DNA of 64,000 nt, from NCBI GenBank assembly GCA_029204225.1, contig CM055095.1:58674865-58738864 (forward strand), written 5' to 3'. Positions 25,749-59,643 of the stretch are shown here, one piece after another (the stretch's first letter is position 1; each line of letters begins with the position of its first letter). Source of the stretch: Diphasiastrum complanatum (Eukaryota; Streptophyta; Lycopodiopsida; Lycopodiales; Lycopodiaceae). The notes below the pieces were generated by a model. The model was not told the DNA's origin. It saw only the letters and a list, made by a program, of their open reading frames with translations, and did no database searches. Both the position numbers and the translations under genes were made by a program.

Positions 25749-26873
25749 ATGGCGGAAAGAGATCACCGGCATGTAGGGCTGGGGGCAAAGGCTGATGCAG
25801 TCGCGTTTCCTCTTCCTGTTGGTGTTGATGAACCTAAGAAGCCCACAGTGAAGAATTTGCAAGCAGGAAAACATGTAGTGGAAGAAGGTAAAGTGGTTGA
25901 AACTGAAAAGCACACCAAGGAGAAAAGAAGATCAAAAAAAGTTCATGGAAAGTTTTTGGGAAACAATTGTCTGATACATACTAGAGGAGACGCCCACACT
26001 GGGGAACCAGTCTATAGCGATTGTGGCACTGAAGTTTTTCATGAGACAGTAATAAAAGCAGAGTCTGCAGAGGAAACTCTTTCTCACAAGCTAACTCATG
26101 GGAGTAAGCTGTTATCTTCTGATAGTGCTGGTATGGAGATCCATGATTCGTCTGAACAACCTTGTTGCCAAATAAATGCCTCTACCGGTTTGGTTCCAAG
26201 CAATTCAGGCACCTCAACCCAAATAGGACCATCTGGAGCTGGTGACTCAGACCCTGTTGGAAATAAAAATCCTACTTTGCAAGCATTAGACACGGTGGAA
26301 TTCTCAGCAGATATGACACCTGCAGAGTTGGATTCTACCTTCCCTTTTATTCCAGCTTCCTCTGTCACAGAAGAAGTTATGGAAGATAATTTAAGAATTC
26401 CTGGTGGAACAATTAATGCAAAGTCCCAAGGGGAAGCTGATTTTGTTGACACATGTATTCTTAGCAACAAAAAAAAGCAAAATCAGGACAGTGAAAGTTC
26501 AATTTGTGGAACGGAAATACCCATGTCAATCATGGATGACCCATCATTTTCAAAGACAACGCAAAAATCAGCAGGAGCTCGCAACAGATGGCGAAGATTA
26601 AAACACACAGTATCATTTGCCAACCATTTAGCGTTGAACTCTCGTTCCGCTTCTCGGTACGTTGCAGAGGAAAAAATAGTCGAGGATCTCTTGCAACCTC
26701 CTCAGTTTAGTGCAAAGGAAGATGTGGGAGGAGTAGGGGCAGCCATTTTCGAGGGGACAAAAACTGGGCCGAGGTTAAGAGTCAAAGGGCGAAAGGGAAT
26801 GGAAGCTATGTTGGTCCGGCAGGAGAAGAGTATTATTAACTTCTTGCAGGATTTTTATGTTGCTTGTCTCAAG
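25749..26873 (+). CDS. Kir-like gene exon 1: long N-terminus and slide helix (residues 1-375)
   Basis: ATG at 25749 lies in a favourable context (AAAAATGGC). The exon encodes a Ser/Glu/Lys-rich region without recognisable domain, basic stretches [12 protein letters not shown] and RNRWRRLKH, then [11 protein letters not shown] and the slide helix [15 protein letters not shown]. It ends AAG|GTAAGG, phase 0. The same frame is open upstream to an acceptor (TTTGTTTGTGTCAG) ending at 25576, so this may be an internal exon starting at 25577. The function of the N-terminus is unknown. Confidence 0.75.

Positions 26874-59643: not shown

Follow-up and report, generated by a model that had tools for sequence, protein, structure and literature searches.

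A clubmoss gene for a Kir-fold membrane protein with a replaced potassium filter, and its streptophyte family

The locus and the gene model

We analysed a 64,000-nucleotide stretch of the genome of the clubmoss Diphasiastrum complanatum (hereafter the window; contig C4, 58,674,865-58,738,864, in an assembly of 1.74 Gb), which carries a gene for a membrane protein of the inward-rectifier (Kir) type. An earlier reading of the letters alone (the sequence-only reading) had joined seven exons into a 667-residue gene for a Kir/KirBac-type potassium channel. The gene corresponds to O6H91_04G111300, whose annotated protein (P0001, 714 aa) was the top match of our protein search, with 100% identity over 98% of the Kir-region query. 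The features are listed below, with TM for transmembrane helix and Ig for immunoglobulin.

25749..26873, plus strand: exon 1 (annotated coding sequence up to 25698), with a long N-terminus of low order, a calmodulin-site-like helix and the slide helix at its end
26589..26630, plus strand: basic amphipathic 1-8-14 motif (14 residues) just before the Kir domain, from the motif pattern and a predicted helix
32528..32718, plus strand: exon 2, with TM1 and most of the predicted pore helix
43637..43758, plus strand: exon 3, with the end of the pore helix, the filter segment and most of TM2
43647..43670, plus strand: STTFGGSP in place of the potassium filter TxGYG, from alignments
47165..47276, plus strand: exon 4, with the end of TM2 (VFARMSHP) and the start of the cytoplasmic domain
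47493..47640, plus strand: exon 5, cytoplasmic Ig-like domain
52305..52466, plus strand: exon 6, cytoplasmic domain with SPLYG
59500..59622, plus strand: exon 7 with its end corrected, end of the cytoplasmic domain
59623..59643, plus strand: intron read-through mistaken for the gene end, from annotation and homologues

On recomputing from the window DNA, the seven segments gave a 667-codon frame with GT/AG borders and phases 0,2,1,2,0,0. P0001 agreed with the DNA exon by exon, which removes the worry that automatic annotation splits or misses exons 3 and 4. All six joins were also bridged by homologue alignment with eight other sequences (length difference at most 3 residues, shortly before join 4), and the paralogue on contig C14 splits at about the same residues, as judged from the ends of tblastn matches. 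Joins and phases were thus borne out by annotation and homologues, but both ends of the proposed gene had to be moved. The true end of exon 7 is at 59622 (donor AAG/GTGCTG). Downstream of LLRTFK, P0001 and its relatives continue with VAGVVAQAISRM or similar (VAGVVAQ or AAGTVSQ), and because of this continuation the stretch 59623-59643, including the TAG read as stop, is taken to be intronic. The next coding exon, VAGVVAQAISRM...SSEDAI and stop, is found at C4:58,740,633 (window-equivalent 65769-65876), about 6 kb on and beyond the window. In the annotation the protein begins 18 residues ahead of the ATG chosen earlier (25749), the coding sequence reaching up to 25698. Of the 714 residues of P0001, 713 map to the DNA, and the failure of the first one to match in the adjoining DNA suggests a further 5′ exon that holds it. 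The earlier gene model lacks at least one exon; the gene itself is real and well conserved.

Homology to KirBac channels and predicted fold

By sequence as well as by predicted fold, the last 300 residues are homologous to KirBac channels. A phmmer search against the PDB returned a KirBac1.1 chain at 9.6e-11, and a profile matched solved Kir/KirBac structures at 4.2e-20 over positions 115-377; the sequence matches among solved structures were Kir and KirBac chains, plus weak growth-factor matches. The protein search returned 95 proteins including the window gene (E 2.8e-216 to 5.2e-42), and these values together with the phmmer match exclude a chance resemblance. Pfam gave a divided answer: the joined protein stayed below both cut-offs (16.4 against 22.7 bits for IRK, 14.8 against 22.5 for IRK_C), but of 44 chosen family members 38 showed IRK_C at E <= 0.01 and 1 showed IRK. 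A six-frame search of the whole Diphasiastrum genome with IRK gave no match, probably because the exons are short and the TM model is blind to the altered pore. In the predicted models the predicted local distance difference test score was mostly 80-97 in the Kir part, with dips to 50-70, and mostly below 50 in the N-terminus. The best fold matches of these models in the PDB were KirBac chains, the predicted structure having two TM helices with a P-loop, an Ig-like cytoplasmic fold and a slide helix at P0001 residues 380-393. Sequence search, profile and structure model therefore agree with the Kir/KirBac assignment made earlier for the last 300 residues.

KirBac3.1 and KirBac1.1, the best PDB matches in both sequence and fold, share with the plant protein the slide helix, TM1, the pore helix, TM2 with FAR..P, and the Ig-like cytoplasmic domain with SPL[FY]G. 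The plant protein differs from them in that TxGYG is replaced, and the window protein has an N-terminal extension of about 350 residues. We regard it as nearly certain that the product of this gene is a Kir-fold membrane protein from an old streptophyte family in which the filter has been rebuilt.

The filter segment

The window protein has STTFGGSP where potassium channels have TxGYG. In a gapless alignment with bacterial relatives, TIGYG falls on TFGGS and the pore-helix E/Q-T on S-L. The aromatic residue of TxGYG is aligned only by a two-residue shift, the gapless register giving T-F-G-G-S, and in the predicted model the pore helix ends at 461, which would suggest a third register. None of these three registers, among which we prefer none, yields TxGYG. 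The segment thus sits at the filter place claimed in the sequence-only reading without being a filter of Kir type.

Three protein searches gave 111 proteins, and on removing a pore-less fragment (P0102) and a bacterial-type KirBac (P0103) we were left with 109 streptophyte relatives, the window gene included, assigned by name or by sequence. T-x-G-[YFL]-G was absent from all 109; the loop is visible in 105 of them, no intact loop being seen in P0087, P0092, P0095 and P0110. The loop pattern could be parsed in 101 cases, 59 of A type and 42 of B type, near-identical database copies being counted separately. The A-type loops comprise 32 STTFGGS, 16 STTFGGA, 2 STTFGGT and 9 variants, and the B-type loops 24 STGLQPE and variants such as STGLEPA. 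Two Marchantia sequences have ITSYGGS. As a control, 37 bacterial loci from one scan gave 27 T[IV]GYG, 4 [SA]IGYG and 3 TLGSG, with 3 not parsed. As judged from these sequences, the filter replacement is a family-wide trait and not a quirk of the window gene, and a potassium channel with a Kir filter is not supported. The claim of a potassium channel new to plants is supported only in part. Conservation across 48 branch-A proteins was equal in the filter segment and TM2, and lower in the pore helix, TM1 and the cytoplasmic domain.

It may be noted that the three TLGSG loci (L052, L053 and L055, from proteobacterial metagenome-assembled genomes) are KirBac relatives that may represent further NirBac-like channels. 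They cluster together among the bacteria, apart from the plants, with weak inner support.

Distribution and phylogeny of the family

The family is far wider than one species. Named rows include streptophyte algae (Klebsormidium, Closterium), mosses (Physcomitrium, Ceratodon, Sphagnum), liverworts (Marchantia, Riccia, Calypogeia), lycophytes (Selaginella, Diphasiastrum), ferns (Adiantum, Ceratopteris) and gymnosperms (Taxus, Cryptomeria); other rows are taken by us, from their locus prefixes, to be of Ginkgo, Mesotaenium and Spirogloea. The sequence-only reading could not say whether homologues had been described in other plants; these groups hold them. No flowering plant occurred among the named close relatives found with branch-A and branch-B queries, in a search that needs shared short words and in which many rows are nameless. 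Two working sets were selected by hand, A1 with 44 of the 95 proteins and A2 with 9 short ones, and a profile search with A2, in which the best 8000 candidates by shared words were scored, reached few distant relatives. Motile sperm was considered as a trait common to the owners and dropped, since conifers and Closterium carry the gene.

Two trees were calculated. The first had 49 plant rows, thinned at 85% identity and with P0104-P0111 absent, and 26 bacterial-type rows chosen for TxG[YFL]G and a length >240 (25 of the 37 loci, plus P0103). All plants fell on one side of a branch with a Shimodaira-Hasegawa-like approximate likelihood ratio (SH-aLRT) support of 100. Three groups emerged among them, namely A (to which the window gene belongs), B, and a small related one containing Klebsormidium, Mesotaenium and Sphagnum rows, with supports of 92-95 by this quick method, and one algal row, P0090, lay outside all three. 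The second tree had 37 bacterial-type rows (36 of the 37 loci, odd filters included, plus P0103) and 24 hand-picked plants; plants and bacteria separated again (SH-aLRT 100), the plant family standing apart from these 37 rows. Groups A and B each contain algal and land-plant rows, and therefore the A/B split is probably older than the land plants. A cyanobacterial origin was also considered and is not supported, as the plants firmly join no bacterial group and long branches meet.

The N-terminal helix of branch A

In branch A the poorly conserved N-terminus typically keeps A-R-[NS]-R-W-[RK]-R-x-x-x-[TS]-[VML]-x-[FL]-x-x-x-[ML]. A spacing of 1-8-14 is a pattern rule for calmodulin binding. A basic helix of this spacing (W-x6-V-x5-[ML]) was found upstream of the pore in 48 of 52 branch-A proteins at a net charge of at least 3 (an earlier listing required 4), as against 24 of 2600 draws from shuffled N-termini of the same proteins; the four without it are P0024 (a partial record), P0030, P0031 and P0049. 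With a cruder anchor 37 matches were kept, 177-206 residues before the anchor. The model places a predicted helix at P0001 residues 295-322. From its pattern the helix looks like a calmodulin site. As a separate observation, some branch-B proteins (e.g. P0057, P0065 and P0070) have amphipathic repeats before the Kir domain instead, and the Pfam apolipoprotein model matches 5 of 44 scanned family members.

Relation to earlier work

The potassium channels of plants are grouped into Shaker and TPK types. Among the matches listed from the open-licence literature we found no paper on Kir-fold proteins across plants, the sole trace being a sentence in PMC1952061 on Physcomitrella proteins that resemble the inward rectifiers of mammals and are induced under cold and osmotic stress. 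For these it cites Takezawa and Minami 2004 (PubMed 15063776), whose title, as given there, speaks of bryophyte calmodulin-binding proteins and of abscisic acid (ABA)-, cold- and osmotic stress-induced membrane-bound transporter-like proteins. Since this description fits the family well, calmodulin helix included, the moss members were probably already known through that work. The family is thus wider and older than the window gene suggested, and partly described before. A 2012 survey of bryophyte and lycophyte potassium transporters (PMC3410407) describes three motifs, that for the pore being [S,T]xxTxG[Y,F,L]G[D,E], a BLAST check with Arabidopsis and rice templates, and a six-frame scan of Selaginella for GYG; the words Kir and inward rectifier are absent from its text. 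Because these pore tests ask for TxG[Y,F,L]G or GYG, members of the present family would fail them.

Taking the above together, we tentatively propose that streptophytes possess an old Kir-fold channel family with at least two new and strongly conserved filters (STTFGG and STGLQPE), of which one branch may be gated by Ca2+/calmodulin, and which would have been kept through land-plant history, lost before or in the flowering plants, and overlooked since surveys sought GYG. The conserved Kir fold of non-flowering streptophytes, with its P-loop rebuilt, makes available a natural series in which to examine what passes through a Kir pore that lacks TxGYG. It may also provide a candidate link between Ca2+/calmodulin, ABA and tolerance of osmotic stress and cold in mosses, where knock-outs are routine, and may tell what the flowering plants gave up.

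Possible function

A known parallel is NirBac, which shares with the plant family the Kir architecture and a potassium filter replaced by a P-loop other than TxGYG. NirBac is described from a few bacterial strains; for NirBac1.1 and 1.2 a little-selective flux of monovalent cations was shown, and the stable oligomers were taken for tetramers (PMC4607889). Its P-loops differ from the plant ones, that of NirBac2.1 being TTGTD and the others unlike any known filter (PMC4607889). We lean, with reserve, towards a Ca2+/calmodulin-regulated Kir-fold cation pore which is probably weakly selective and NirBac-like. Four subunits would form the pore, through which monovalent cations would pass with little or no preference for potassium, much as they do in NirBac channels of bacteria. 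Gating would follow KirBac, by the Ig-like cytoplasmic domain together with the conserved VFAR.S.P segment in which TM2 ends. In branch A, Ca2+/calmodulin on the N-terminal helix may tune the gate and so link the pore to ABA, cold and osmotic stress signals. A weakly selective pore is favoured because the loops of the two branches differ strongly, which makes a shared potassium filter unlikely, and because the strict conservation of each within its branch argues against an idle pore.

Several points weigh against such a pore. No data on currents, fluxes or localisation came to light for any member of the family, and the plant segments differ from the NirBac filter printed in PMC4607889. Three TM2 positions at which L, V or I prevails in the bacterial rows are taken by phenylalanine, which could narrow the cavity. 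One relative alone, P0093, has the loop TLGGG, a relaxed TxGxG. Outside branch A the 1-8-14 pattern is missing from all but 1 of 57 family members (P0105), and the equation of the 2004 moss proteins with this family draws on one citing sentence and a title.

It is also conceivable, though unlikely, that the protein is a pseudochannel, that is, a Kir scaffold which serves as a membrane-bound Ca2+/calmodulin or lipid sensor with its pore closed. The filter signature missing in 109 of 109 relatives and the phenylalanines along TM2 would suit this, as would Arabidopsis KCO3, which is said to act independently of potassium transport, though it is a TPK derivative (PMC3694395). But conservation among the stretches measured is highest in the filter segment and in TM2, which is unexpected for an idle pore. 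KCO3, called Kir-like, resembles the plant family in having two TM segments and one P-loop; it is set apart by its description as a truncated TPK channel of Arabidopsis only (PMC3694395), and the family has no TxGYG pore.

Rather improbable, in our estimate, is a potassium-selective channel with an alternative filter, in which [S/T]-T-[F/Y]-G-G would give the carbonyl ring in another register. Its precedent is TbIRK of Trypanosoma brucei, like the plant family a eukaryotic Kir relative without TxGYG, but one with the filter GGYVG and a roughly 7-fold preference for potassium over Na+ (PMC5429665); no reliable BLAST matches outside its own group are reported there. Most branch-A loops do retain a T, an aromatic residue and two glycines. 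Branch B (mostly STGLQPE), on the other hand, has a single glycine, no aromatic residue and an added proline and acid, and hence one potassium filter for the whole family is unlikely.

Copies in Diphasiastrum and selection

The protein query matched the genome on C4, on C14 (with a second copy on C1471), on C1 and on C21 (with C2300). Besides the window gene, Diphasiastrum has the C14 paralogue P0006, a branch-B gene (P0097) on C1, and isolated fragments on C21. These exon-5-like fragments (C21:25825099, i.e. L024; C21:25871879; C2300:8076) are 51-53% identical to the window protein, and the one in L024 is 72-80% identical to the C14 paralogue; no other exon of the family was matched in the 9.9 kb stretch of L024.

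Between the C4 gene and the C14 paralogue, the ratio of nonsynonymous to synonymous substitution rates (dN/dS) was 0.117 by NG86 over 314 codons of the Kir part, with a dS of 1.73 that is near saturation; by halves it was 0.201 for the TM part and 0.069 for the cytoplasmic part (dS was undefined in two of the six NG86 comparisons). Where branch A shows at least 95% conservation, which is at 144 positions, the window copy departs at 5, including the change Q504H just after TM2. The window gene looks to be maintained under purifying selection. That the gene is a pseudogene or that unrelated exons were wrongly joined, as the 40 kb span with its retroelement pieces and the partial copies on C21 might suggest, is very improbable given a frame open over all exons, the annotation, the exon-wise match to homologues on compact contigs (e.g. 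P0004, 806 aa on a 2961-base contig), the low dN/dS and the few departures. The C14 copy has 13 of 144 departures and the filter segment STTFSGS, and may be diverging in function.

Other features of the window

An open reading frame at 53107-53745 on the minus strand (F-box-like, 1e-8) lies antisense within intron 6 of the Kir-type gene and is possibly a nested gene. Retroelement pieces (Copia-type RVT_2, gag and GAG-pre-integrase, and reverse-transcriptase RNase H) occur upstream of or inside the gene at 10592-11086 (minus), 13537-14085 (minus), 19032-19562 (plus), 38597-38992 (plus) and 41104-41685 (plus).
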